Below, piece by piece: positions 7,251-60,961 of a stretch of 64,000 bases of DNA. This stretch comes from Candolleomyces eurysporus. Its lineage: Eukaryota > Basidiomycota > Agaricomycetes > Agaricales > Psathyrellaceae. Numbering within the stretch: the first letter of the stretch is position 1; each line of letters opens with the position of its first letter. The DNA lies in the NCBI GenBank assembly GCA_027579435.1, contig JANBPK010001481.1, positions 1 to 64,000 of the forward strand. The letters are read 5' to 3'. Under the pieces are notes generated by a model. The model worked only from the letters and a program-made list of their open reading frames with translations, ran no database searches and was not told where the DNA came from. The position numbers were made by a program, and so were the translations under genes.

Positions 7251-7377
7251 ATCTCCCTGATAGAACCCATGTAACAGGTACGGACGACATCGACTCGTAC
7301 GGGTAATGGTTATTCCCATCAACCGTTCTGTTTCTCTGGTGTACTGGTTAAGTGGAGGGTGTATGAGCGGATTCCAC

Positions 7378-7495
7378 GGTGGCTCAACTCGATAGTGCTG
7401 TTGCTGCCCCAATTGACCCTCAGTCAAGATCAATCGCAGCTAAACCCTTTTCAGGGATATCAGGTCTTCCTTGTAGCCCATCCACATGCATCTAA
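7378..7495 (+). pseudogene. decayed C-x4-C secreted-peptide gene (MHWLS type)
   Basis: In one frame this reads ...AAPIDPQSRSIAAKP... and ends GLPCSPSTCI then TAA at 7493-7495. It aligns over its whole length with the intact minus-strand gene at 56008-56166 (APVNSQPRPIAARTPP ... CPGYICI stop) and with the remnant at 12176-12335. The signal-peptide part is shortened and the ATG is gone, so it is probably dead, yet the C-x4-C-I-stop end is preserved. Confidence 0.65.
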
Positions 7496-8159
7496 AGAAG
7501 CAAGCTTGGGCTCCAAGCTCGAGTTAGAATTCACGGCTTCTTCACCTTTTCTCGGGCTCAAGAATGTTCTGTTACTAACCAGTCTCCGTTCGAGATGTTT
7601 CTCTAAAGTATAGGAAAGAACCTGACGGGCGGAGATGTATACATACTGCAATGAACGATACCTTCAAGTTGATCTTCGACAATATCGTCTAAGGAAGAGA
7701 AGCGTGATATATCCTCACATCTTGACCGGCTCGTTGGCTTGACTGCCATGATAAGGTTTTCATATCATTGTGTATCATGATAATCGGTAAACTTTAACTT
7801 CGATGTGTTAGTAGATAGCTCCGAGGTTTACGGGCTCGGGTACGTAGAGCACCGTTGCCTTTCCTCGATCTCAGAACCTGTCACCGTGAAAACTCCTTCT
7901 TGCTAACCTTGAGCCTCCCTTGGTCGACATCTACCAGAATCTCATTTTTTCTTCCTCATCTAATTCTGTAAGTCAGTTAAACCATTAGTAAAAAGGTCTA
8001 GAAATTGTCATGCGCCAGCTGGACCGTATACCCGAAGTATTGGGTACCAGCGAAGTTAAGTAAGAGACCAAGAGAAGCAACCGCCGGCGGACTGTGACCG
8101 CAACTCAAGTTAGACGCCATGGGCGCTAATTCCCAATCCGGCGCCCACACTGGAGATAT

Positions 8160-11083: not shown

Positions 11084-11128
11084 AAGTGGACGTAGTTGTA
11101 TTACTAAAATCGTCATTTGCTTGCTACG

Positions 11129-11325
11129 ATGCCCGGTGGCTCCCCGCGGTACTCTTCTCAATTGCGGTGGTTGCAGTTGAGGCAGCTTCTATCCCTCAAC
11201 CTCTCAGTAGGAACAACTTATACAACGGTTTTGTCAACATTTCTGTTTTCGTTGCTATGAAACTATCTCCCTCCCCCAAACTTCCAACTCGAGTAGCTGG
11301 TAAGTCGTCAATACTAATTATTTAG
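11129..11325 (+). pseudogene. frameshifted secreted-peptide gene (MTLWF type)
   Basis: The leader ending ttgctacgATG is shared with the intact gene at 14494. After the ATG one base is missing relative to that copy, so the signal peptide continues in another frame (RWLPAVLFSIAVVAVEAA). The first-intron region (gtaggaacaact...) and the CTG micro-exon followed by gtaagtc (about 11296-11305) are also conserved. The mature exon is replaced by unrelated sequence leading into the 2OG fragment. Confidence 0.65.
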
Positions 11326-12050: not shown

Positions 12051-12175
12051 TCCTCTCATTCATAGGATAGATGTGACAGGTACGGGCGACATCGACTTGT
12101 AAAATCGATATTGCTACAAGGGCGAGGCCACGGGTTGTCTTGCGGCACTCAGCAACACCCTGAGTCGTCGTCCCG

Positions 12176-12335
12176 ATGTACTGGCTTTCGACGGCTCTTC
12201 TACTCCTTGCCGCGGCTTCCGCACCATAACCGTCATCACTGCTCCAGTTGACCCTTGGCCGAGATCAAATTGCAGCGATACCCCTTCCAGGGATGCTAGG
12301 TAGTCCTCCTTGTAGCCCATCCATATGCATGAGTC
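12176..12335 (+). pseudogene. decayed C-x4-C peptide gene (MHWLS type)
   Basis: Starts ATG TAC TGG CTT TCG after cgtcgtcccg, the same leader as the intact gene at 56166. The signal peptide MYWLSTALLLLAAASAP ends in a TAA after 17 residues. In another frame the rest continues as IAAIPLPGMLGS and PPCSPSICM, still C-x4-C, but the stop after the motif is lost. Confidence 0.7.
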
Positions 12336-14493: not shown

Positions 14494-14772
14494 ATGACCC
14501 TGTGGTTCACCGTTGTCTTCCTTTCAGTCGCTGCTGCGGTAACTGCAGTGGGAGCAGCTCCTGCCCCTCACCCCATCGGTAGGAACAACTCGCATAACAT
14601 CTTTGTGAACAATTCTGATTTTTCGTTGCTATAAAAATGTCTTCCTCACCCAAACTTACCAATTCAAGCAGCTGGTAAGTCTTCAATACTCCAATTTTTA
14701 TATTCATACCAAGTCTCGCTTCTTGCAGTTCCACAAAAGGAAGGAGGTTGCCCTCCCAGGATTTGCGCCTGA
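14494..14772 (+). CDS. small secreted C-x4-C peptide precursor
   Basis: Precursor of 43 residues. Exon 1 (14494-14578, 85 nt) codes a signal peptide beginning MTLWFTVVFL and ending near AVGAAPAPHPI. The last exon (14729-14772) codes VPQKEGGCPPRICA and a stop. Between them a 3 nt micro-exon CTG (14672-14674) sits between a good acceptor (aagcag) and donor (gtaagt); because it is 3 nt, skipping it keeps the frame and gives one 150 nt intron. The mature part has two Cys four residues apart, with the second one residue from the C-terminus. This end pattern, the exon 1 length and the phase-1 junction are shared with the minus-strand cluster at 54-60 kb. Secretion is predicted; function unknown. 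Without the intron the ORF is only 46 codons. Confidence 0.75.
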
Positions 14773-34479: not shown

Positions 34480-37170
34480 TCAAATGAAGAAGCGGATGAG
34501 GAAGGCCAAAAGGACAGCTACCGGGATGGACAGGAACGCGGGATGCAACTGAGGCAAATCACTAAACAAAGTCCTTCTCACCTCCGACTCGTTCGCAATC
34601 ACCGGGGTTGTTCCAGCAACACTGGTCACATTTTCAACCACAAGGGCAGTAGACATAGAACTCGCAGAATCCTTGATGTTACTCAGCTCGTATTCAATCG
34701 CTTTGGCTTGGGTCACTTTCCCCAAGCGCTGATAAGTCGTCCGCAAGTCTGCCAAAGCCGTAATGGTCTCTGGATGGTTCCGTCCAAACTTCTCTTCCTT
34801 CGTAGACACCAATTCCATCTGAAGTTCTTCAGCTTGGATGTATTTGCCTTGTGCGTTGTATATCTGGGCCAACCTCCCCATAGAGGCCAGGGATTCGAAG
34901 TGGTTCTGCCCGACGATCGATTTGTGGTATTCGAGTAACGGCCGCTCAAAGGTTTCGGCTTCGATGTATTTGCCCTCCTCCGAGAAGAGTTTGCTGAGAT
35001 TTTCCATCGAGCTGAGAGAGTCGGGATGCGTATCTCCCAGAAACTTCTTCCGTTTCTCGAACGATTCGAGCCCTGCCTTCTCGGACTCCGCGAACTTGCC
35101 TAGACGTTGGTAGAGTGTCGATAGATTGGAGATGGCGGTGAAAGTTCGACGGTGTTCTTCTCCGTAGATCAACTTCCGTTGTTCCAAACTCTTCATGAGC
35201 AAAGGCTCCGCCTCGCCAAGGTTTCCCAATTGGAGATAGAGTACACCCAAGTTATCCATGGAAGTGATGGTTTCGACGTGGTCCTCCCCGAGCACCGAGC
35301 GTTGAAGCTCCAGAACGCGCTCCAAGAGTTGCTTCGCTTCAATGTGTTTGTTGAGGCAGGCGTAGTCAATCACCACAGCAGACATAGCTCGTATGGTGAG
35401 GACATGCCGTTCACCTAGGTGCTTCAGGCGCTCCTCCATGATTTTCATGTCAATAGCCGCTTTGGTGGGCCGGTCTTGCAAGCCCTCGCAGACTTTGCTG
35501 GTCAACTGGAGACGATCTTCCCAATAGTTTGTATCTACGTCCTTGACGAGGTGCAGGTGTTCAATGAAGTGCGGGGCGTGTCGGTGCATCAACCGCGTAT
35601 TAACTCCTGTGTTGTATCTTGCAGCAAGGATCAGCAGTGCACCGGTTATCCTGCTATGCTGTCGTTGTTGATCAGGTGGATAGCGATCGCGACCCCATTG
35701 GTGAATCAACGGGTGAACGAAATATGTGCTAGACTTTGCGTCTCGCTTGATGATTGAGACTGATTGCCAGAGGTGCATGCTCGTCCGGAACTGTACTGGG
35801 TTCCAGCCTTTCTCGAAATAAGGGAGGTTGATGATATCCAGAAGGTGTGGTCCCTCGTCTTTCTCTCCTTTGGACGGGCCCCGCTTCTGCAGTCGTTCAA
35901 GGTGCTTCAGCCACGTCTCCGCAGCCATACGAAATAGCTCTTCGTCGATCCCATAGTAGTGGAGAAAGGTGCAAATATTGAAGATGTAGATGGCGTACTG
36001 GGCGGCTACACCCATGCTATCATTTCGTTGAGCCTTCTCCTCCATTTGCCGCCACGAGACTTCGAACGAGCCGTAAACTGTGAGCTCGTAGTCCGACGCA
36101 GATTGAAGGCTGGGGTTGTCGAGAAATTCTTGTCTGTACTTGCGATACAGCTCGATGTAGGAGCCTAAATCACATATTCCCCATCTAATCGCTGCTGCCG
36201 CCTGTTCCAATGCGAGAGGAAGGTATGCAAGCTCCTTCGCAATTTGACGAGCGATGCCAGTGCTATGATCGTTATCTTCTCGCTCCGACTTCGTGAGGAG
36301 CATCTCTACAGCGTCTTCTTCCTCCATGACGTCTATTTCTATCCTCTTTCCCACTCCCCTGCTTGAGTTGTGGTCCCGACTAGTGATCAAGATGTCGCCG
36401 CTCTCGAGACCGGGAGGAAAGAATCGGTTGATCTCGTCGTTGGCGTTGTCAAAGAGGATGATCCAATTGTCCTTCAAGGAGGCGATCCAGCCTAGTACTC
36501 GCTGCGGAGTGGCAGTATTGGAATCAAGACCGGATTCAAGGGCCAAGGGTAGATCTGCTATTGCGATCAAGCTCGCACGAATGGTATCCGATGTACTCGC
36601 ATCCACCCAAAAGACATGCCCCCTTGGGTATCTATTCCGTTCCAATGGAGAACAGTGGATTAGGAGAGGCGCTGGAGTGTGGAAGAGCGAAAAGGGCGCT
36701 TACATGGTAGAGACAGATTCGACGAATTTAAGGGCTAGTTGGGTCTTCCCGATACCTCCAAGACCATGGAGCAAACACACACGGCGGCAACGCTCCTGGG
36801 TCGGCTGCCAGGGGTGAAAGTATTCATTTAACAACTCTAGCTCTTTCTTTCGACCAGCGAAATGAGCTGTTGCATTTGGTTTGACAACTATAACGTCTGA
36901 ACGGGGGTTGCTGGATTGGACGCGGAGGTTTTCCACTTCTATCTTTACATACTGAAATATGAGGCCAGCTTTGTGAGCGCACCCTGGCCGAGTCACAGTC
37001 GAGACATACTTGATTGTACTGGGAATTATGGGTGTTCTCTATTTGCACATTTAGCTGGAAATATCAATTAGTTTGGCTGGGCAATCGAGGATTATCGAGC
37101 GGACCTGATCGCCTTGTATTGCATTGAATGTTCCTTGTTCAATGTTGAAGTGATGGGCCTTTTCGAACAT
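34480..37170 (-). CDS. NB-ARC TPR protein with C-terminal membrane segment
   Basis: NLR-like STAND ATPase of 836 residues. Four exons in consistent phase: 37170-37105, 37054-37010, 36951-36704, 36631-34480. The N-terminus (HHFNIEQGTFNAIQGDQ) is the short Asn/Gly-rich motif seen before nucleotide-binding domains of fungal NLRs. Walker A is GLGGIGKT (about 100-107), Walker B is WIILFDNAND (about 176), then ILITSRDHN. The second half has kinesin-light-chain-type TPRs with the repeated pattern GE.H..T......L...Y...G. The last 20 residues (LSIPVAVLLAFLIRFFI before the stop) form one hydrophobic helix, suggesting a tail anchor. Divergent from the NACHT gene across 558 bp. Confidence 0.9.
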
Positions 37171-37728: not shown

Positions 37729-39916
37729 ATGCCTGGAAATCAAGTTCTCCTGCGGCCACCTCAGCCATTTCCAATGCTGCATCAACGGGCAGCACCAAAG
37801 GCCGATGGCGTGACGTCTTTCTTTCCTGGCGCCAGCGGCGTGAACATGCGGGATATACAGTATTTCGAAAATACCCATATTACTATGCATTCAGGTGGTG
37901 GCATTGACGATACCCCGAATGATGGTGCGTCAAACTCATTCATTGTCAATTCCGCTGAGAAGCTGAGCCTCAATCACTAAATTCTGCAGGCTGGGAACTG
38001 CTGTTGAAGAATATCGCACCCAATGCTCTGCATGATTCGAGCGCCCGATACGACGCCCCGAAGTGCGATGAAGACACTCGTGTTGAAGTTACTGATGAGA
38101 TCATGGAATGGATCCAAAATCGCGACGCTCCTCAACGCTTGCTATGCATGACGGGCGCTGCGGGTGCTGGAAAATCTGCGCTGCAGCAAACTACAGCCGA
38201 ACGTTGCATGGAGTTGGACATCCTTTCTGCAGCGTTCTTCTGTTCTTGTACAGACCCCACTCGAAACACAACCGCTTTCATCGTCCCTACCATTGCCTAC
38301 CAGATAGGATTAAAGCACCACGGCTTCCGAAGGTCCGTTGCCGCTGCCGTGAAGCACGACCCCACGATCTTCTCTCGGTCTCTACAATCCCAGATGGATG
38401 TCCTCATTGTTCGCCCCTTCGAGAGCCTCGGAAGGAGTCCGGGACTTGACACCAACACCTTTCCGTATGCCGTTCTCATTGATGGCCTCGATGAGTGCAT
38501 TGGCCAATATGGCACTACACCCACCGAAGCTGACGATCGATGCCAGGCCGAAGATCGACAAGCAGAGTTATTGGCCGCCATTAAGCGCTGCATCGTCGAC
38601 AACAATCTCCCCTTTCGCGTATTTATAGCCAGCAGACCAGAATGGGCTATCCGTACTGCGCTCAAACCTGGTGGTTATCTACGGCAGGTGGCGTACCACA
38701 TAGAACTCAGTGACAATTACGACGCTTCTGGGGATATGCGTCGATACCTGCAGAGGAGGTTCATAAATATCGGTCTACAAATCGGCGATCCCCAATGGTT
38801 CAGCGAAGATGCCATCGAGACTCTTGTCCAAGCTGCGTCGGGGCAGTTTATTTACGTCGCCACAGTGTATAAGTACATATCGGAGCGTCGAAGTTCTCCA
38901 GCGGAGAGGCTGAAGGTTATCCTCACTTGGACACCGCACGACGGGCAAGTGGTGCGTCCGTTCGAAGCGCTGGATAGACTTTATGCCAAAATCCTGTTGA
39001 CTGCAAAGAAGGCGTACGAAGCTGTTGATATCCACCACGGACGCGATTTTCTTCTTCTTTTCCGGGCACACCATATGTGTGTTGACGGGTTTTATATTTC
39101 TCTTGTGTTCACAATACTTAGATGTCCAGCGGACGTCCTTTCTGCACTGCTTGGCCTGGAAGCTAGGGCCGAGTACATCCTGTCCTCTGACCTCCGCTCC
39201 CTTGTAACCCTCGAGGAGGACAGTGTTGGTGATCTATATCTACGTCTGTACCACAAATCCTTCTCCGATTTTCTGGAGGATGAAAGTCGTGCAAAGGAAT
39301 TGTTTGTACCAGAATCCCGTGTTTATACACACCTCGCAAAGCGCTGTATGCAACACATCATCGAATGTCCGCTGGACTTTGACTCTCGTGCGTATCGCAA
39401 GTTGATTCTAGTATTGGCACTGACTTTGACCCGACTTATACCCTCTTATTTTAGTACCGGATCAATGGGAAGAACTCCCCCTCCCAGAGCAACATAGGTA
39501 TTCCTTGAAAGAAGCCACCGAGAACTTGCCGTTTTTCTTGTGTCAAGCAAACACTCTGGATGATGAAATTGCTGATTTCACCCATCACGATGGATGGCCA
39601 AAACTCCAAAAGTTGTTGCTTCTAGTCATGGCAACTCGAAAAGGGTGGCTTCGCTCCATCAAGAATTGGAAGCTTTGGATCGATTGTCTTCGCCATTTTA
39701 CGGACAATTTGGCAGTGAGCGATCTTCTTCTGTTCTGAGGTGACAACTAACATCGTTTCGGTGTTTCTTTAGGCCCGAAAGCCTGAGGTTGCTGCGATTA
39801 TCGACGAGTTGCTTGAAAAGGTGAAGCGTGATCGGGAGGACTTGGATCGCGAAATGGGGGATTTAACTTCTGATTCGAACCAGCCCTCGTTGGGCCCCTC
39901 TTCCCTTACCGAATGA
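37729..39916 (+). CDS. NACHT-domain P-loop NTPase
   Basis: Fungal NLR-like protein of 665 residues from exons 37729-37924, 37990-39387, 39455-39714 and 39773-39916, all in phase. Start taken at the first in-frame ATG (MPGNQVLLRP); an upstream exon is possible. Near the N-terminus lies MRDIQYFENTHITMHSGG, a short motif like those before other mushroom NACHT domains. Walker A is GAAGAGKS (121-128); the Walker B region is PYAVLIDGLDEC; VFIASRPEW follows. The C-terminal part has LRLYHKSFSDFLEDES, a conserved winged-helix-like end of this family, and no WD or TPR repeats. Ends with a charged helix. Confidence 0.9.
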
Positions 39917-50050: not shown

Positions 50051-51257
50051 AAAGAGGACTCGAGAGCCGTTGGACAGAGACGGGTGGCCATGTGGTAAGA
50101 GGCGAATAGCGTGAGCATGGCGGTTGAATAGAGTTTCCCTATGGGTTGGCGTGAAAGGTTATTTCCGCAGACATAACGTGAATGTCTGGGAGAGAACTCA
50201 TTTCACTTGGGTGAAGAAGGGAGACGACTGCATCGGAATGGGTAATGGCTGCGCGGTTAATGTGATGTACTGGTTAAATATAGCTTATTTGGATTCATAT
50301 CAGAGATTGGATTAGACCGTGGCCAGGTGTACAGGGCTCGATATGGAGAAACTCCAACGTTATGTCCTGAGTTCGTTCCTCTACTAGTCCTTCTTCTTCA
50401 CACGTACTGTTGGTTTGAGTTATAATTCTAGTGATCGAGTGAGCGGACTGGCGATTTGGGGTGTTCACTTATGCATGCGGGGACGGTGATAAGCGTTTGG
50501 TCATGAAAGTGAATGCTGCCTCGAGGACCCAGCCACATCCCTTGCTCATATCCCGACAGCGAACGTGTAGTGCTCATTTATGATTTAGCAGGGTCCTCCG
50601 AGGCTAAGAGTCCTGAACTTCATTTCATCCGCTGTCAGGGTCGAAATCGGGTACTCGTCGTCGGCTCGTTGCTCGAAGGAACACCCGTTTTACTAGCTGT
50701 GGGCAGTCTGGCCTCTGCAGGTCTAGGCGTGTTCAGCCAGCCACCGACGCTTGGCAACCGAGAACGACCACGCAATGACAAGAAGTTCCGCTTTTGGGAC
50801 AAATGACATTTCAATGATGTCAATGACCGGAAACGGCTCCTCACAATTTTCCTTCCACTCCTAGTCTCTCCCGCACATCCACTTGATAATACGAGCAAAA
50901 GCCAGCTTTTAGAAGAGAGATCAAGTCCAAAACTTACTAGAATCATATAACCTGGATCGTCCGCACCACTGTGTCGACGATCACCTCAAACCCGGCTAAT
51001 CTGGCTGATGAGAACCGCCCGGCGTCTTCCGGATCGGCCGTTTTTCCTCTCAGCATTCTCACTGTCCCCCTGAGTTTGTTGCCTTCTTCCAGCTCATCGC
51101 CCAGCTTTTTGCCTCCTCGCTTCTCAGCACCCCCACACTCCTTAACCCTTCTCTTCACCTAAAACCCCTTTTATTTCTCCCCTTTTCCTTCTATTTGGTG
51201 AGTATAAAAGCTCTCAAAGGCCCTTCGCTGCTCACCACGTCGATTTGCAGAGAAACC
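50051..51257. other. intergenic region
   Basis: No supported gene in the first 900 bp. The last 250 bp (cccctgagtttgttgccttc ... cccttttatttctccccttt) is pyrimidine-rich, and ggtgagtataaaagctctc at 51197-51215 gives a TATA element about 55 nt before the next start. Confidence 0.5.
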
Positions 51258-52205
51258 ATGCAGACCAGGAGCCTTGTCGTCTCTCTCCTTACTGCTGCCT
51301 CGTTGGTCGCTGCTCAATTCAGGGTCACCGTACCTAGCACGAGCAACTGGTGGGGTGAGTTGCTGTTGTTGCTAAGGATTCTCGGCCGTGGGCCCTAACA
51401 AAGTCTCCGTCAGTCGCCAGATCCACCAACATTCTCGAATGGACTTGCAGGGAGGCCAATGCACCAGCACAATTCACTGTTTTGTAAGTTGCTGCTTTCC
51501 CGCTGGTCGGAGACCCTTTCTAACCTCGTCTTTCGCAATACAGGATTGGTAACAGCGTATGTCTTCGATGTCGTCGAAAAATGTTGTCCAGTGCTTGATA
51601 TTCTCTCGTTCTTGTGAATAGGACCAAACCATCCTCGTCCAGCCCTTGGCCATCATCGCTCAGCAAAACAACTTCGACTGCTCAATTATCATCACCCAGG
51701 ACCAAGCTAACCAGGCTGCTGGTCAGGGCTACCAAGTCTATTTGGCCAACCCCTTGAACAACACCGACGTGAGCACCACTCCATTTTATGCTCCCTTGAC
51801 CCTCAACCCCACTCGCGGTACAACTGTCCACACGGGCGGATCCTTCAGAGAAACCATCTTGTACCCGAGTACTCCCATCCCCCATCATGGCCTCATTTTC
51901 GCTTTGGCCTGATTACCTTCATTTTGTTATGATGATGCTGACGAATTCTCTCTTACTTTCATCAGGTTTACGCTACCTCTGAGCCTTTCGAGATCAAGCC
52001 CCTCGGTTCCCTCTACCCCACTCAACAAGCCGCTGCGGCCTCCTCGGCAGCTGCTGCCGCGTCTGCCAGCGCTGCAGCCAACTCGACCAACAGCAACAAC
52101 AATAACAATAACAGCGGTGCTTTCAGCGTCCGCTCCGGTGTGATTGGTGGTATGGCCGCGGGTGTTGTCGGCCTTGTTGGGGGAATTGCTGCTACCATGC
52201 TTTAA
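51258..52205 (+). CDS. GPI-anchored Ser/Ala-rich cell-wall protein (Kre9/Knh1-like N-terminal domain)
   Basis: Predicted cell-surface protein, 188 residues, five exons: 51258-51354, 51414-51483, 51544-51556 (13 nt), 51622-51768, 51966-52205. Starts with a signal peptide (MQTRSLVVSLLTAASLVAA). The middle has the features of the Ser-Thr-rich GPI-anchored family: VPSTSNWW, NILEWTC, FTVLIGNSDQTILVQPLAII and VYATSEPFEIKP. An Ala/Ser stretch and an Asn run (SNNNNNNNS) lead to a C-terminal hydrophobic segment (GGMAAGVVGLVGGIAATML) fit for GPI attachment. Phases of all exons agree. A strong TATA box lies just upstream, so it is probably well expressed. Confidence 0.88.
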
Positions 52206-53914
52206 GCTACATATACTCTCGGACGATAGAGTCTGTCATTGACTCTTCCCTGCTTAAAAGCTATGGGCACCGTGTCCCCCACGGCATGCTCTTCCCAATC
52301 GCGAACATTGTTCTGCTCTTTGGACCCGTCTCTTACTCTGCCTGCTGGTTCCCCAATGGACTTTGCTACCTAACGACGCTTTTTCCTTTATTTCTATTAT
52401 GCTATGTGTAACCAAACGATGAGTGTCTTTGCTGACGTTGTTACCTCCCTACATTTGTTAGTCGTCCTCGCATTGTCACTCAAGATACCTTGTTAATCAC
52501 TTTGTTTGTAAAACTGTTGCTGGTGGGCGATCAAGTGGTTACATTCATCAACGTTCTCTCGTCTCTCGGAGGCTTTGCTGAGTTGAAGCAGTCGGGCCGG
52601 GAATCGCACCGGGATCAATGTTTACTCACGCCACACTTTCCAAAGATGTGGGAGTCGGTTCCTTGAGCTCGGCTCTGTTCACCATGGGCTCAGCCGCTAG
52701 CTCGTCACCGAAAGCCCTCGGCGATACTGGTACGTACTCCTTAGAGATAGACTCTTTCAAGAAAGAGCCCAAAAATGTATCGAAAATCACCACGCTCTCA
52801 GCTAGTAAAACAGGAAATCCTGCAGGCCGAGCTTTTGATCTCTTTGGGTCTGACCCAGCGCGTAAATTGGCGGAACGGAGAGGAATCATGCTGAAAACTT
52901 CATTCGCGCAGCCTGATTGTACGTAGAGGATGTAGTAGCACAAATACCGATAACGTCCTCAACACTGAGTTGTGACGCTATCTCGCAGAGCTTTGTTCGC
53001 AAATGCGCGGGTGCGGAAGACAACGAACGATGCGGCCAGCGACTGCGATATCCAGAGGTACCCGGCGGATTGTGGAATCCATGGACCGACTGATCGCACT
53101 CTCTGTGAGCGCAACTCTGGAAGTCAGCTTTATCCCTTCCACAACCCCATCTATCCTGATGTTCGAATGCAGATGACCCCGATACAGCCCTAGCATCAAA
53201 CTTGTCACTAGAGAACGCCAAGATGTCCGCTTGGTCTTGCCGTCGTTCAGAAAGTTCACACAAAGCTTCTCCACTCGAATCTGTCGGAGCAACGAGCTGA
53301 GAACTTCACGGTGAATTCTGCTGAGAAGTTTCATGGAGACTCTGCCCTTGGAAGCAACACGTGCGCAGCACATAGCGCCTTCTCTCATGATAACGAACTC
53401 TCCTTCTTATGATACTGATGTGCTTCAAATTCGTTAGAATCAAACACAAATTGGAGTGGTAAAGACATTCATTAACTGCTGTGATGAGCCCTTCCCCACC
53501 ACCTTAGACGGTGCTTATTGGTGGATGTGCACATCCCATGGTACAATGACATACGAGTCCCCAGAGATCCAACTTGACGTCGTGTTTGGTGATCGCGTCT
53601 GGACTAAACACATCGGACCTTCTATTCATCCTGCGCTTAGCTCCTTCCAGAGGTGGCTCTTTGACGCCCACAACAGCCGCCTACCATCACAAGCTCTAGC
53701 CTGGAAACCCTGGCGCTCCAAGCCGTTCGCGTTTATGCAAAGAATTAGAAGGAATCACTTGTCGCCTGTATTCTTATTTCTATTTCTTTGTACGTCGTAC
53801 ACTACAAATTAAACCAGCAAGATCGAACACGAATCATCAGTCAGACTACGAGAGATAGGTATACGGTCGATGCCCAGAAGGGAGGATCTCCCCGAGTTCA
53901 GTCCATACGGCCTC
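52206..53914. other. intergenic region with an orphan promoter copy
   Basis: The first 300 bp are the 3' flank of the GPI-protein gene. Minus-strand ORFs at 52626-52943 and 52978-53388 have no domain I can name. The block 53354-53478 is a duplicate of the upstream region of the peptide gene at 54143. Confidence 0.45.
53354..53478 (-). repeat. duplicate of peptide-gene promoter, without its gene
   Basis: Matches 54262-54393 over about 125 bp (tagcgccttctct, tgatactgatgtgcttcaaattcg, ttggagtggtaaagacattcat). In the intact copy this precedes a TATA element and the peptide start; here the corresponding position reads catgaaac instead of tataaaac and no signal-peptide ORF follows. Confidence 0.7.
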
Positions 53915-54143
53915 TCAGATACAGATAGCTCCGATACAGGGCCCACCTCCAAGTGGGCTTGCACTAGCACCTTCGAAATCGTCTAGAAAGCAAAAGAAGT
54001 CCATTTAGTTGCTGAAAGCGTCGCCGTCCTCTGAAAAGCTCACCTGAGGAGTCTCCGCTCGGATCAGTTGGAAGGACAGGCCTTCCCAAGGCAAGTGTAC
54101 TCAAAACGAGTAGCACCGTGATAAATGCTGCGGGGGTGTGCAT
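53915..54143 (-). CDS. small secreted C-x4-C-I peptide precursor
   Basis: 55-residue precursor from exons 54143-54044 and 53982-53915 with a 61 nt intron (gtgagc ... tttctag). Exon 1 codes the signal peptide MHTPAAFITVLLVLSTLALG and RPVLPTDPSGDSS; the phase-1 junction creates the Asp codon seen in relatives. Exon 2 codes DDFEGASASPLGGGP and ends CIGAICI-stop: two Cys four apart, Ile last. A TATA-like tataaaactc lies about 100 nt upstream (54250-54241). No long ORF shows the real product, because unspliced reading gives a basic tail instead. Function unknown. Confidence 0.75.
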
Positions 54144-54657
54144 ATCGAATTGGCTCGGGTCTGAGGACTTTTCACGGAGGGCGTGAGGTACGGTGGCGAC
54201 CACGGTGGGGTGTTGAGATGAGAACTCTGTTAACACAGCTGAGTTTTATAGAAATACTACCTTTGGGAGCAACACATACGTACCATGTAGTGCCTTCTCT
54301 TAAGCTAACAGAATCTCCTTCTCATGATATTGACGTGCTTGAAATTTGTTCGAATCAAAGACAGAGTGGAGTGGTAAGACATTCATGAACTAGGTTTCCC
54401 CAGGATCTCATCACGAATTTGATTATCACCAGACGAAGGATGGGTCCCACTGAATGAGAGTAGGACAGTTGAGACGGTGAGAAACTTCGTGGGAGACGTT
54501 GTCGTGATTATTCTCCGAGCTAGCCACAGGTAGAAGAAGTTCTACTCGTACAAAAGCATACAAACTAGAACATTTCCCATGTCTCCGAAAATAGGCTTTG
54601 CAACAGCACGAGTGGGGTGTGGTGTTCGCCCTTCTAGGACACACGGCCCAGGATCTA

Positions 54658-54938
54658 TTAGTACCCTTTCTCGCAAACGAGAGTATTGCAGATTGTGATC
54701 GGCGGGTCTTATAGAAGCAACAGGAATTAGTACTAATACAAAACACAGCATTAGTGACTTACCTCGGGCTGGAAGCTTGGCCAAAGGTGTATCGATATCT
54801 TCGGCGACACAAAAATCAGAGAACCTGACAAGACTGGTAAGAATCGCACGTACATTGAGGTTGAGCGGTAGGAGCTGCAGGGACTGCAACTACTGCAGCA
54901 ACTATTGTCAAGAAGAACGCGGTAAACCACGAAGTCAT
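54658..54938 (-). CDS. small secreted C-x4-C peptide precursor (MTLWF type)
   Basis: 46-residue precursor. Exon 1 (54938-54854, 85 nt) codes MTSWFTAFFLTIVAAVVAVP and AAPTAQPQ, clearly homologous to the gene at 14494 (MTLWFTVVFL). A 6 nt micro-exon CCCGAG (54768-54763) sits between tccag and gtaagt, the same place as the 3 nt micro-exon in that gene. The last exon (54707-54658) codes DPPITICNTLVCEKGY and a stop, again C-x4-C but with four extra residues. Skipping the micro-exon also keeps frame. A TATA element (ggtatatataa, 55031-55021) lies about 83 nt upstream. Function unknown. Confidence 0.7.
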
Positions 54939-55020
54939 CGTCGAGAGCGAGTGTTGAGGGCAGTAAATCTGTCTAAGGTTTTATTTGGGGCTGGCAATTC
55001 ACATTTCACAGGGACTGCTC

Positions 55021-55031
55021 TTATATATACC
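55021..55031 (-). promoter_or_regulatory. TATA box of peptide gene at 54.9 kb
   Basis: ggtatatataa on the minus strand, about 83 nt before the ATG at 54938. Confidence 0.55.
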
Positions 55032-55230
55032 ACCTAACGTACTCCTGAAAACATACATGAACACACATATTGGGTCTCCGAGCCTCCCAGAGCCAGCGTA
55101 TCAAAGCAAAACATCTCTTCCCGTCCTATGACAAGTGGTTTAGGTGAATCGATGAACTCAAATGAAGGTGCTCCATCCTTCTCCCGTTGTGTCATTGTTT
55201 ACGCCTGTGAAGAGCAGGGTATAGCTGACG

Positions 55231-55425
55231 CTAGATGCAGATTTGCCCGCCCGGTTCGACTCGGCAATCCGCGTCGAGTGCGTCTAGACAAAGGGGAACG
55301 CAAGTTCAGTGGATGTCTTCGCTGCGGAAAGCGAGCTTACCGATAGCGACGTCAGGAACGGGCGTTGCCAGAGCAAACATACTGGTAATGCTCATGAGCA
55401 CGGCCAACACGTTGAGGAAATGCAT
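55231..55425 (-). CDS. small secreted peptide precursor ending GGQICI
   Basis: 45-residue precursor. Exon 1 (55425-55341, exactly 85 nt) codes MHFLNVLAVLMSITSMFALA and TPVPDVAI; intron 55340-55284 (57 nt, gtaagc ... gtctag); exon 2 (55283-55231) codes DALDADCRVEPGGQICI and a stop. The junction again makes Asp. The two Cys are eight residues apart rather than four, but the Ile-Cys-Ile end is kept. TATA-like gtataaagcc at 55522-55513. Function unknown. Confidence 0.75.
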
Positions 55426-55512
55426 GCTGAGCAGATTTGGTCTTGGACGCAAGAGCTCAATATGGACAGGTGGAGAGGAAGGGGATGACCAGCAGAAGAA
55501 TGCGATGTGGTC

Positions 55513-55522
55513 GGCTTTATAC
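55513..55522 (-). promoter_or_regulatory. TATA box of peptide gene at 55.4 kb
   Basis: gtataaagcc on the minus strand, about 88 nt before the ATG at 55425. Confidence 0.55.
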
Positions 55523-56007
55523 AACGCCGAGGGTGCTATGTATAGATAACCCTGCGCCCATAATACTTCGATAAGTGGTGTACTTGGAAATAGAAGAGAG
55601 AACCAGGCGGGGGGGGACGTGGGTAGCCAACGCAAGTTTCCCTAATCGACGCCGGTGAGTACAGATTGAATTCAGACAGAGAATATTACTGAGTCCTTAC
55701 CGCAGTCTAGCCGATGAACCAGTCGAATTGCAAGCGTATATCACGCTTCGCTTCGTTAGAAATGCTTCGGAGAACAACTTGAAGGTCATCGTTCGTTGTA
55801 ATACAAACACAGCTACGCGAAAGTCGAATCTTTCCCTACACTTCGGAGAAACATTGAATAAAAATCAGCTCTCGGCGGCAACACAGTTTCAAACTGAAGG
55901 GCGGATGCCGTGAATCGAACCAGCGCTGGGTGTACAGGGATCACTGAAGTCCATACGACGATATCGGGGGCCGCGTGGCTCAATACAATAAGTTGGATGC
56001 CCGAGCT

Positions 56008-56166
56008 TTAGATGCATATGTAGCCCGGGCACGAAGGAAGACAGCCCGGCATCCCCGGTGGGGTTCTCGCTGCAATTGGTCTTGGCTGAGAATTAACTGG
56101 TGCAGCGACGACAGCCGTCGACGCGGAGGCTGCGTCAAGGAGGAGAATCGTTGAAAGCCAGTGCAT
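56008..56166 (-). CDS. small secreted C-x4-C-I peptide precursor (MHWLS type)
   Basis: 52 residues in one exon, ATG at 56166 and TAA at 56010-56008. Signal peptide MHWLSTILLLDAASAS, then TAVVAAPVNSQPRPIAARTP and PGMPGCLPSCPGYICI. The last two Cys are four apart with Ile before the stop; a third Cys lies upstream. The remnants at 7378-7495 and 12176-12335 are its decayed relatives, sharing even the leader cgtcgtcccg before the ATG. TATA-like tatataaacg at 56226-56217, about 51 nt upstream. Function unknown. Confidence 0.72.
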   Translation of the reverse strand: MHWLSTILLLDAASASTAVVAAPVNSQPRPIAARTPPGMPGCLPSCPGYICI

Positions 56167-56216
56167 CGGGACGACGACACGGGTTGTTGCTGAAGGCTGC
56201 AAGACAATGTAGTCTC

Positions 56217-56226
56217 GTTTATATAG
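56217..56226 (-). promoter_or_regulatory. TATA box of peptide gene at 56.2 kb
   Basis: tatataaacg on the minus strand, about 51 nt before the ATG at 56166. Confidence 0.55.
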
Positions 56227-56229
56227 CAG

Positions 56230-57660
56230 TATACGATGAGTCAGTGTGGTATTCCCTCATACCCTCGAATTGACAAGTGCGTCAGAGAACAGAGAGAAAC
56301 GGTTGGTAGTAATAACTACCAGCACAAGTTCAACCTAGTCGACGACACATCGATATGGATCCCGATCGATTTGGAGCTGAAGATCCAAGATGCATCCTCC
56401 CCAATGGCAGATGAGATGCCTAACGCTTCTGAAAGACCTGAGACCCAAGCATTGGCAGTATTAATGAGATGAGGTGACATGGAGGCCTTGGTCAAGGGCG
56501 GACAGAATGTGAAGGACACGCGACAGCAGAAGGAGTCGATCGTCAAACAGAGCGCGGATGAGACACACTCGGTACGCTCTTGAGCAGAGAATGGCTCTCG
56601 TGTCTGTTCGGTGTCGTGCCGCAATACTGACTGTGAGGCCTGGGAGAGATTAAGCAGAACTCAAGAGACAGGAAGAAGGTACTAATCTGAATCAACATAC
56701 CCTTCTCCGTACGTTCCAAACGTGAGCCTCAACGTACCCAAAACACCGCGACATCCAGCAACTGTATCAACCAAAGCCTGACTGTACATTCATAAATTCG
56801 AGTCTTGCTCTTCCTTCGAGGCAAGAACGTCGAGGCGGGATGCATCGAATTGCGACGGATTTAGGAGGGTGATTTCGTGAGCTGCAAAGAAGTAGGATCA
56901 TGGAGGCTTTTGTGAATGGCTCTAGGGATACGCTGGGCTGGAAAAGCTCGTCAGATGGCGAACACTGCAGATTCAGGTGTCTCCTACAGCGAGGTTCGTG
57001 GACAACGCTTTTGATGTGGCGAGGTCGTTTCTTGAGCCATTGTAGGCCCAGGAGAAGGCGCCCGAAGGTGCCTACTATGCACCACGTATTGCAGGGCGCT
57101 CCCTTGCTTTCGATTGACAAGCAGCACTCCCCGCAAAGGGTTCAATGAGGCTGCCGGACTGTATGGTAGACGCCTCTGGTTTGAAGTTGGACTCGTACAT
57201 GGTTGCGGCTGAAGAGAATAGGTCGACGCGACGCGACGCTGGGGTCACCTGGAGACTCCGGCTTTCACCTTTCCCTTCTGCCGTCAGGTCGCGACCGGCG
57301 ACTAAGCGGTGGCCTGCGGCCGCTGCCTTCCACCTCACAATTGTTTCATTCAACTTCGCATGTTGCTGTAGAGCTACGCTGTACCGTTTAGCGAAAGTGC
57401 AACACGCAAGAACATCAAGTCTCTACGAGGATGGCCCGCGGTCGTCGAGAGGCCAATTCCAATGGGTAATTGTAAGCTTGACAAAGGCTAGGCTACGAAA
57501 GGTTAAGCGAACTTTTCTTTGTCAATGTGTTCGACGGTGACCGACTATGAAGATCATAGCCGAATGCAAGACGAGGTCAAGTTTTTTAGACTACTTTCTG
57601 AGTTTTTCCTTCACCGGTCCAATTGCTGTACACTCTTCCAAAGTCAAAGGTCCTCAAGTT
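56230..57660. other. spacer in peptide cluster, no supported gene
   Basis: Contains minus ORFs of 92-117 codons with no signal peptide, no C-x4-C end and no domain that I recognise. It may hold decayed members too diverged to see. Confidence 0.35.
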
Positions 57661-57760
57661 AATCAAATACAGAGAACTACATGCGAAGCAAGCTCCCATT
57701 TCCAAAATTGTCCATAAATCTCTGGATGACCTTCCCGACTACGGCCGGTAGCAAGCCTAG

Positions 57761-58000
57761 TCAAATGCAGATGCTTCCCCCTTCAGGAGGGGCAACCCTG
57801 CCAACGCCAGTTTCTTCTATACATGCAGGGTCAATGTTATCTTGCAGGAAAGGCAGGAGTGTAATTAGTTTTGCTCCAAATCGAGGGATTGTCTGTAGCT
57901 CACCCCGTCCTCTGTCAGGGCTCTGAATTATGGGATGTCCAAAAGCCCACAGTGTGCTTGCAAGCCCAGCAAGGAGGATCAATGCCTTCGAGATGTGCAT
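57761..58000 (-). CDS. small secreted peptide precursor ending GGSICI
   Basis: 58-residue precursor. Exon 1 (58000-57904) codes MHISKALILLAGLASTLW, then AFGHPIIQSPDRGR; a 63 nt intron (57903-57841, gtgagc ... tgcaag) is a multiple of three and open, so the unspliced frame also reads through to the same end. Exon 2 (57840-57761) codes DNIDPACIEETGVGR and ends PPEGGSICI-stop. The Asp at the phase-1 junction and the Ile-Cys-Ile end match the family; the Cys spacing is wider. No strong TATA box near the start. Function unknown. Confidence 0.72.
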   Translation of the reverse strand: MHISKALILLAGLASTLWAFGHPIIQSPDRGRGELQTIPRFGAKLITLLPFLQDNIDPACIEETGVGRVAPPEGGSICI

Positions 58001-59921
58001 GTTTCAATGTAACAGCGATCCGGGGGAGTCAACGATAGAGAGGGACTGGGTTGTCAACGATGCTTGGGTCTAAATAAGGACTCCGGAGTGGGGTTTAGTG
58101 GGATGATCAGCTCTCAATGGTTGCAAAGGGATGAAGCAATGGGGTTCCGATATATACTGTTAGTACCATGGGTGAATTAGAAAGTACCTGTCCAAGCTTT
58201 TGTTACACATTTGCCGCTAATACAATGTCACTGTAGCCATAGTTGTAAATCGAAGACTCAAGCCATGCACGAATATCGTCGAACTGACGCCGATGTAGAA
58301 GCAAGCACCCAATCCAGTCTTCAGCGTTGGAAGAGCCATTGATTCTCGAGGTGAGCTCCGATTCTTCTCCTACCATAAGTTTCTTCGAAGCAGATGCTTA
58401 TCATTGTTCTCAATACAAAAACAGGTAAGATATCGGGCTTCCCCCTGATACTTGAGGAAAGAATGGAAGTTTTCTCCTAACAACACAATCAATTAAGCGT
58501 GGGCCTGCCCTCGGTACCAGAAAATAGCAGCGGCGGAGAGTCTGACACAGAAAGATTAGAAATTGGAAAAGCGACTCGGTGCAACTTCTGGCCGTGTTAA
58601 CTTTGAGAAAATTTGAGGAGCAACCGACCTCAAAAATAAAATGGAGATATCAGAGCGGGAAAATAAGGGGAAAGGAAGCGATGCACGCCCAATACATAAC
58701 AGTGCCCAAGAGCAACGACTTCGGCGCGAGATGGTTGAGTCAAATGGACAGATGTTTGCTGAGAACTGCAGCAGGAATCGAGGTCGCACTGATTGCTGCC
58801 ACCGTGCGACGTGTGACGTCATGGTTGTGAGGGTCATCAGATGAGCAGAAACGAAGGCACAAGTTTCAAATGCTAAACAGCCTCGACCGTTATCGGACTC
58901 GGTATTGTGAGAGACGGTGCTCGCGAGAGGCTTCATTGTTTTGCAATCGCGTTCTTCCTCTCACTTCATAGAAGGGACACCCGAACGGTTCTCATCAAAG
59001 TGATATAATATGTCCGGGTAGGTGTCGTGTCGCAATATTAGAAGTGAAAGCGAGGATGCCCGATAGTGCGCATTAAGTTTTAGGGTGGGGCACAAACTAA
59101 CTGTCGCGTACCGCGACATACCGGTCTTGAAGAGGCCCTCTGAAGTCACCAAGAGCCTAAATAAAGGTAGGCGTCTTCGTCTTCTCACTTAGCTGATGCT
59201 TCTTCCTTCGATACGGGATACTTCAAAGGCGGTCGGCGAGGTCTCTGGGCTTGTATGGTACCCGGTAGAGATCACGGCATTCATGATTCGGCCGGGGTGC
59301 TCGTCCTGTACATTCTCCTCTGGGCTGGGCTCAACGGAGTGGGGAGGCTGTGAGCTGGATGCCCCTGATTGAGATTGTGAATATGGTTAGAGACATGGAA
59401 GCAATTGGTGGGAGAATGGGACGATTGCCGGAGTCTCGGTGGCCAAGTTCATAACGTTCTCCGTCAGTCCAGGTCCAACAGTTTAAGCCGCCGGTACGAG
59501 CATCAAATACTCTCTAGGCGTTCTTGGAGGTATCCGTATCTAAAAATGCGCTTATGGACCACATTCTGTCCTAGTGATTCAATTCGGCTCAGGTGAATCT
59601 CTGAATCTTGCCAAAGGGCATTGACATTGACACCACACCACCGTTCACGAGTTGATTCGGGAAAGAGTGCTCTTATCTGACTACGAACTTATCACTCTTC
59701 TTTCTTCTTCTTCGGAAACAAAAGCTGAGTACAATCTTTCAGGAGTCGGAACAAGGTGGGTCCTATTAACTTTATCCAATATTCTTTCTGATCGTTTGGA
59801 CGACGATGCTGTCGAATCCGAAACAAGGAGACGCGTTGTGTGAACAATTGCCGTCATCTGAACCGCTATAGCGGCATCTCGCTGAGCAACAGTTGACCGC
59901 GAAAAAAGAAGTAACTGACCT
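58001..59921. other. spacer in peptide cluster, no supported gene
   Basis: 1.9 kb of short ORFs only. I looked for signal-peptide exons and C-x4-C-I ends on both strands and found none that hold up. Confidence 0.35.
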
Positions 59922-60124
59922 TTAAATGCAGACCCTGATATTACAACTACCATCCTGAGATGGTGGACCTTTTGCTACATCTACAAGCACATCTGGAACG
60001 TAAGAAGCGCCGCGGAGGCCTTAGAAGACCAAAACATACCACGAGCAGCAGTAGGAAGCGGGGTGGCGCTAATCAATGCCGCTGTGAGGACCGCAACGGT
60101 AGAAAGAACAGAAAAGGACTTCAT
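59922..60124 (-). CDS. small secreted C-x4-C-I peptide precursor
   Basis: 51-residue precursor. Exon 1 (60124-60040, exactly 85 nt) codes the signal peptide MKSFSVLSTVAVLTAALISA and TPLPTAAR; intron 60039-59993 is 47 nt (gtatgt ... ttccag); exon 2 (59992-59922) codes DVLVDVAKGPPSQDGS and ends CNIRVCI-stop. Reading through the intron would give an unrelated Cys-Leu end, so the family signature depends on splicing. TATA-like gtataaaagc at 60180-60171, about 47 nt upstream. An Arg just before the junction Asp could be a processing site. Function unknown. Confidence 0.77.
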
Positions 60125-60170
60125 GCTCGCGCAAGCTCCAGACCTAAAGCTGATAACAGCCGGCCGCATT

Positions 60171-60180
60171 GCTTTTATAC
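60171..60180 (-). promoter_or_regulatory. TATA box of peptide gene at 60.1 kb
   Basis: gtataaaagc on the minus strand, about 47 nt before the ATG at 60124. Confidence 0.6.
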
Positions 60181-60961
60181 GATGGCCTTAGCCAAGAGAA
60201 CGCTCGGGCTGCCTAAAACTCGGAAAAGGCTGTCAACGGAGAACATGTCGCGTCTGTCAACTGTCCATTTGTCCCCCTGTCTGGGAGTAGCTGACACGGT
60301 AGATATCGATGTGCCAGCTCGTAGGAAGAAGAAGCGATGGTGGACTACGGGAGAGACTCCGAGATAAGTAGGAGCTGCCGTTGAAGAGGGGCCTGATTGT
60401 TCCGGCTTTGTCGATCTTTGTCTCTCTTCACAGGACTTCGACTTCTTCGACTTATTTCATGAGCACAAGAAGCTCAAAGATGGGAAGCAACATGTGGACG
60501 AATTCGCAGGGTTTGAGTGGTAGGGTAATTAAGGCAATCAGGAACGCTGTTCTTCTTACCGCGCCTGATTGATGAGAGATGGGCTTGTGCTAGTGGCGGA
60601 TAGGAGGTAGGAGTTGGTCTGTGCTCGAACTAGATCGAGGAAGGGGCGGTTAAGGAACAAAACAATAACTGGGCCATGCGATTAACCAACTTCACACGTT
60701 GTCCCGCGCTCATTCAAGGACTCCTCATCCACACACTGCAGTCGCTTCTCCTTATGATACAAATTGGAAGACAATATCCTTCTTGATATTTAGTTTGACT
60801 ACTACGTACTGTACATTCGATATAACCTCCATTTGACACATAGATACATAAGGAGTACTGAGTGGGAGTGTAAATGTACATGCTCAAAGCCTGCATAAAA
60901 AAACTAGTTGGGATGATACATATATCCATACACAATGCAGCNAAAAAAAAAAGACAGAAAC
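60181..60961. other. intergenic region
   Basis: Includes the 3' flank of the coiled-coil gene; N at 60942 in an A run. No gene supported. Confidence 0.4.

Follow-up and report, generated by a model that had tools for sequence, protein, structure and literature searches.

Here we report that a 64,000-base window of the Candolleomyces eurysporus genome (bases 1-64000 of the 90,277-base contig C470; genome searched, 65.85 Mb in 1296 contigs) carries a cluster of six tiny peptide genes, named A to F by rising coordinate, that lie on the minus strand between 53915 and 60124 and are not explained by chance. An earlier reading of the DNA (the sequence-only reading) had placed six genes of 45 to 58 residues here, each with a signal peptide and none with a recognised domain, and on these points our analysis agrees with it, the signal peptides being putative. 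It had also proposed a common Cys-x4-Cys-Ile-stop end, which we found in three genes only (A, D and F); the mark that they share is the sharper signature [Ile/Val]-Cys-Ile-stop ([IV]CI-stop), present at the C-terminus of five of the six (all but B). With further members on contigs C202 and C895 (Table 1), the peptide family looks real, judging by its sequences, and we give about an even chance to the reading that it is a lineage-restricted family of secreted prepropeptides, with one disulfide and partly trimmed, that most likely act as extracellular signals.

The common plan opens with a hydrophobic leader at the N-terminus, followed by a short stretch that is often Pro/Ala-rich. Near the middle of most genes is a phase-1 intron (absent in D and proposed for E), and the final coding part, which contains two Cys (three in D), almost always terminates in [IV]CI-stop. 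The best 10-residue hydropathy of the N-termini of A to F ranged from 1.8 to 3.0, leaders being judged by hydropathy alone, and with lengths of 45 to 58 residues (79 for E if unspliced) all six fall within the size range of small secreted proteins (<300 residues with a leader). No Pfam family rose above the cut-off in 13 family peptides (best sub-threshold E 0.076) and no NCBIfam family in five, and a PDB profile search gave no match. The modelled introns of the cluster are 55-63 nt long and all in phase 1: one of 61 nt in A, two of 55 nt in B, both with an AAG acceptor (B minus its middle exon is, by reading, still in frame), and a proposed one of 63 nt in E. Because the intron of E is in frame and stop-free, this gene is also open unspliced, with an identical tail (CIEETGVGRVAPPEGGSICI); its acceptor is the weaker AAG, and choosing a nearby TAG instead would lose the first Cys. 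Alternative splice sites are present in A and F, the choices in F retaining the tail, and TATA-like boxes stand at -107 in A, at -59 and -57 in D, and at -55 in F. The earlier claim that the tail appears only after splicing, and is missed by callers of open reading frames for that reason, is correct for A, B, C and F, where splicing is required to reach it, and wrong for D, a single exon, and for E.

The tail signature was compared with chance in several ways. In the whole window [IV]CI-stop occurs five times, always inside the cluster, whereas 300 Markov copies of the cluster region gave a mean of 0.10 and a maximum of 2. A gene-model scan (ATG, hydrophobic start, a GT[AG]nG..AG intron or none, and C..C[ILVM]-stop) of positions 53801-60300 recovered five of the six genes, missing B with its different end; the same scan of 150 copies of this stretch, drawn from a first-order Markov model, yielded zero models in 146 and one in 4, and 98,034 bases of real background yielded two models, neither with an [IV]CI end. 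Another gene-model scan of the whole window returned six models, four in the cluster and two poor ones on the plus strand, and six Markov copies returned none. Over the approximately 135 kb scanned (the window plus loci L043-L049 and L112; 135,277 bases, 100 counted twice), 11 of 11 [IV]CI-stops were tails of family genes (5 in the window, 4 on C202 and 2 on C895), a proportion that carries a selection bias, as C202 and C895 were picked because each had a tail match; ten of these tails were recovered by the scan and one, that of the five-exon C895 gene, was read by eye. Beyond the family, a looser rescan, admitting any AG acceptor, of 98 loci fetched by tail patterns (97 [IV]CI-stops, overlaps counted apart) placed leader-like models at no more than six tails; half of these models are unspliced, and the three spliced ones have introns in phases 2, 2 and 1. 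In the preferred family models every intron is in phase 1. Leader-like models from this rescan on C41, C42 and C1220 were set aside for want of the family plan.

Membership stands at 12 genes (6 in the window, 4 on C202 and 2 on C895) plus a probable seventh window gene, B2. Eleven of the 12 end in [IV]CI, so that the last three residues are nearly constant, and the loop between the last two Cys spans 4 residues in six members and 8, 11, 13, 17, 18 and 20 in the others. The fixed Cys-x4-Cys loop of the sequence-only reading was consequently rejected as the family mark: even within the cluster B reads C-x4-C-EKGY, C reads C-x8-C-I and E reads C-x17-C-I.

Conservation of the tail in a second genome had been named as a way to check the proposal, and one protein provides it. 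P0001 of Candolleomyces efflorescens, a 45-residue protein whose annotation marks it as partial, aligns gap-free with gene C at 69% identity, retains the tail EPGGQICI, and is the apparent ortholog of that gene. The mature part of gene C is well conserved over its whole length within Candolleomyces, so that the claim of a constrained tail and a free middle applies among paralogs and not to this gene. Three homology searches, each against 5.77 billion proteins, returned 204, 33 and 36 candidates, and P0001 was the sole match among them; the second search gave none of its 33 candidates and the third only P0001 of its 36. Absence elsewhere means little, because such tiny genes are often unannotated and a protein search needs shared words.

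Copies within the genome tell of turnover. Exon 1 of B2 is 59% identical to B across 27 residues, and decayed copies of A, B and D lie in the same window, that of A aligning at 71% identity over 92 upstream bases and on through the tail. Decayed A and D paralogs still show C-x4-C followed by one hydrophobic residue; an indel separates D from its decayed copies, yet the last Cys pair still encloses four residues in each. Contigs C1145 and C536, which are 96-99% identical in the compared stretch and perhaps represent two haplotypes, carry a B-like gene ending CPRGTLHECDH together with flanks of D. The family genes are arranged in clusters, in which copies are both gained and lost. Repeats of a non-coding stretch downstream of D (window 55715-55846), with an identity of about 73%, likewise accompany other family copies.

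In the 10 kb fetched from C202, all four [IV]CI-stops are tails of phase-1 spliced models. The five-exon gene on C895 contains exon-intron units, each about 105 bases long and arranged in tandem, that encode YKPPPISNII and variants ahead of its tail; its two-exon companion ends 1.5 kb away, stop to stop, and DUF7330 fragments flank the pair on both sides. Genome-wide, the tail patterns were mostly chance matches. The pattern ICI followed by TRR (which also admits TGG) gave 590 places against 360 in controls, 100 of the 590 being listed. GGxICI gave 5 places against 0, two of them window genes C and E and the other three without a model; Cx3ICI gave 23 against 8, two being window A and D and two more being accepted, on C202 and C895; Cx3VCI gave 24 against 16, with a spliced model at the tail only for window F. 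GxICI and PxICI gave 38 and 33 places against 21 and 22, and among the 38 of these 71 places that were fetched (the remainder being TGG-ended, repeats or already covered) a scan restricted to pyrimidine-AG acceptors gave two unspliced models, on C518 and, weakly, on C1001, and no family model with an intron. The frame on C518 (position 10106, locus L099) is a single-exon, secreted-looking frame of 58 residues ending SPDICI, either a relative or chance. A weak model on C367 (a Cx3ICI place) and an unspliced frame at L063 (a Cx3VCI place) were left out of the count; L051 and L070, near-copies of L063, show a weak match to A (E 0.001-0.002, calculated with no composition correction).

We hypothesize that these genes encode peptides that would be processed in steps. 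Signal peptidase would release a propeptide; a Kex2-like protease may then cut behind Lys-Arg in two C202 genes and behind a single Arg in B, D, E, F and one C895 gene, perhaps with X-Pro/X-Ala trimmed by a dipeptidyl peptidase as well. A proprotein-convertase P domain is present in the genome. The two Cys are inferred to close into one disulfide loop, leaving an exposed -Cys-Ile-COOH end that could be read by a receptor or partner, and the peptide would act as a signal outside the cell, passing among hyphae or to neighbours. This signalling step, taken alone, we hold tentatively, as possible rather than probable. Several points weigh against such an account. B ends in CEKGY and the B-like gene of C1145 and C536 in CDH; splice sites are non-unique in several models, and one C202 gene holds an undetermined base. 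Ahead of the Cys pair, a clear basic site is missing from five members: A, C, two of the C202 genes and one of the C895 genes. Gene models and peptides alike are known from sequence alone. No receptor is known, and the STE3 receptor genes lie on other contigs: the 40 STE3 matches are confined to C215, C63, C912, C1217, C372 and C1141, off the family clusters.

Fast turnover also fits defence or antagonism, and the sequence-only reading was right that the letters cannot choose among signalling, defence and plant interaction. We favour extracellular signalling, then defence or interaction, and then a precursor of ribosomally synthesised and post-translationally modified peptides (RiPPs). Orphan secreted peptides from clustered genes with fast turnover are typical of the arsenals of defence and competition, and peptides aimed at bacteria, animals, other fungi or plants would accord with the turnover that the decayed copies record. 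The 14 proposed mature forms, however, have charges of -4 to +2, mostly neutral or acidic, and a single Cys pair (three Cys in D), which argues against a cationic antimicrobial role and led us to rule out a cationic Cys-rich antimicrobial peptide; the lack of any Pfam or NCBIfam family above cut-off also speaks against defence, which we consider unlikely. Chance or non-functional frames are very improbable: several decayed copies share the window and the examined tail matches elsewhere in the genome were mostly chance, but any model at all arose in just 4 of the 150 Markov copies against five in the cluster, the ortholog P0001 kept its tail, and intron phase is uniform in the preferred models.

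If the peptides were RiPP precursors, UstYa-type oxidases would cross-link their side chains and the product would be a modified small molecule instead of a disulfide peptide. The C202 cluster is where this explanation draws its strength. Two UstYa genes lie there on the same strand as, and just upstream of, the four family genes, whose stops are separated from the nearer match by 0.6 to 2.9 kb; a P450 fragment follows about 4 kb past the last one, and Lys-Arg sites occur in two of the four. These UstYa and peptide genes possibly form a mushroom RiPP cluster. The repeated C895 gene, with three Tyr-Lys-Pro-Pro units and Ile, offers a Tyr/Ile core as in dikaritins, in which Tyr and Ile are linked (PMC9233826). 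These features, UstYa neighbours with Lys-Arg and the repeated exons of one C895 gene, are what the family has in common with Kex2-processed repeat proteins and the dikaritin and epichloecyclin RiPPs. There is, however, no UstYa match on C470, C895, C1145 or C536, and the six other UstYa contigs, C1151, C64, C1034, C1094, C1164 and C993, are absent from the lists of Cx3ICI, Cx3VCI, GxICI and PxICI places; among the 100 ICI places listed, one, on C64, is an ICI-stop that has a UstYa match some 7 kb away. When the C202 stretch served as a DNA query, only its UstYa part had relatives, on C64 and C1164. Family peptides are mostly single-copy, and repeated Tyr cores between Kex2 sites were not found, the one repeated member of 12 (on C895) lacking Lys-Arg. 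We regard RiPP precursors as quite unlikely.

Returning to secreted signals, comparison with known systems sets bounds on the proposal. Fungal small secreted proteins are short, with an N-terminal secretion leader, without a domain and orphan (PMC7105643), all of which the family shares; it differs in its defined C-terminal [IV]CI signature, common intron phase and clusters. The alpha-type pheromone of Fusarium oxysporum has 10 residues with Cys2 and Cys9 (PMC7289986), and ascomycete alpha-type pheromones resemble the family in having a secreted precursor and two Cys, the second adjoining the C-terminal residue. Alpha-type precursors have repeats separated by Lys-Arg and a Trp end, whereas the six window genes have neither Lys-Arg nor repeats and the end is Ile. 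A search for the STE2 receptor found no match in this genome, nor in the control genomes. As the oxidised form of the alpha-pheromone is inactive (PMC7289986), caution is due in taking the disulfide form as the active one. Sexual pheromones of Basidiomycota are described as a-type only, and because alpha-like, Kex2-processed peptides are already reported from some Basidiomycota (PMC6339444), the idea of such peptides there is not new. The window genes also invite comparison with a-type precursors. Basidiomycete a-type (CaaX) pheromones are encoded by tiny clustered genes and carry a C-terminal Cys; that Cys stands at -4, whereas the last Cys of the window genes is at -2 (five genes) or -5 (B) and a secretion leader is present, and CaaX identity was ruled out by Cys position and the lack of STE3 linkage. 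The animal peptide urotensin II has a C-terminal C-x4-C loop followed by one aliphatic residue, a likeness in shape only, with homology not expected. In the literature searched, judged largely on the openings of abstracts, we found no published account of an [IV]CI peptide family. That these peptides form a new class of mushroom message, with a single disulfide and read through the free -[Ile/Val]-Cys-Ile end in an alpha-pheromone-like channel, one cluster being coupled to UstYa for a further cross-link, is a long shot.

Because tiny genes such as these, whose diagnostic residues often lie in a last spliced exon, are readily overlooked in annotation, mushrooms may have a layer of peptides that has escaped notice. 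The search rule that emerges here (leader, phase-1 intron and [IV]CI-stop, in clusters) could uncover family members elsewhere in the Agaricales, and function is directly testable with short synthetic peptides.

Table 1. Peptide genes, related copies and other features of the window (coordinates without a contig name) and of other contigs.
Feature	Location	Strand	Remarks
Gene A	exons 54143-54044, 53982-53915 (span 53915..54143)	minus	55 aa; tail CIGAICI
Gene B	exons 54938-54854, 54798-54763, 54707-54658 (span 54658..54938)	minus	56 aa; tail CNTLVCEKGY
Gene C	exons 55425-55341, 55283-55231 (span 55231..55425)	minus	45 aa; tail CRVEPGGQICI
Gene D	56008..56166, single exon	minus	52 aa; tail CLPSCPGYICI
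Gene E	exons 58000-57904, 57840-57761 (span 57761..58000)	minus	58 aa if spliced; tail CIEETGVGRVAPPEGGSICI
Gene F	exons 60124-60040, 59980-59922 (span 59922..60124)	minus	47 aa; tail CNIRVCI
B2, probable seventh gene	14494..14772; exon 1 14494-14578, last exon 14729-14772	plus	tail CPPRICA; middle exon uncertain
Decayed copy of A	53172..53385	minus	reads CIGVICI, then runs on
Decayed copy of D	12104..12330	plus	tail region CSPSICM, runs on; 72-74% DNA identity to D
Decayed copy of D	7373..7495	plus	tail CSPSTCI, then stop
Decayed copy of B	11101..11293	plus	62% DNA identity over 206 bases
Repeats of D-downstream stretch	7595-7746; C1145:10093-10231; C536:25363-25501
C202 gene	C202, 120155	minus	tail CTPDICI; one undetermined base in gene
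C202 gene	C202, about 119030	minus	tail SLGICI
C202 gene	C202, about 118340	minus	KRQASC..GPVVCI
C202 gene	C202, about 117875	minus	KRQDSC..GGPEVCI
C895 five-exon gene	L030:1005-1524	plus	tail CTTTICI; read by eye
C895 two-exon gene	C895, beside the five-exon gene	plus	tail APPAICI
UstYa matches, two genes	C202, 120797-121069 and 123039-123287 (L046, L112)	minus
P450	9.2-10.4 kb
GH88	16.6 kb
RRM	19.7-21.2 kb
TPR protein	34483-36645	minus
NACHT/NPHP3 protein	38004-39494	plus

Many other open reading frames of the window had no Pfam match, and no neighbour was found that explains the peptides. The TPR and NACHT/NPHP3 proteins, on opposite strands, are perhaps parts of NLR-like genes and are placed between the intact and the decayed peptide groups. 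The exon at positions 51012-51398 on the plus strand is the first of a gene whose product has a secretion leader and, by eye, seems to resemble surface proteins of the Kre9/Knh1 type. Between E and F, a 58-base stretch (58704-58761) is 93% identical to C1177:19517-19574.

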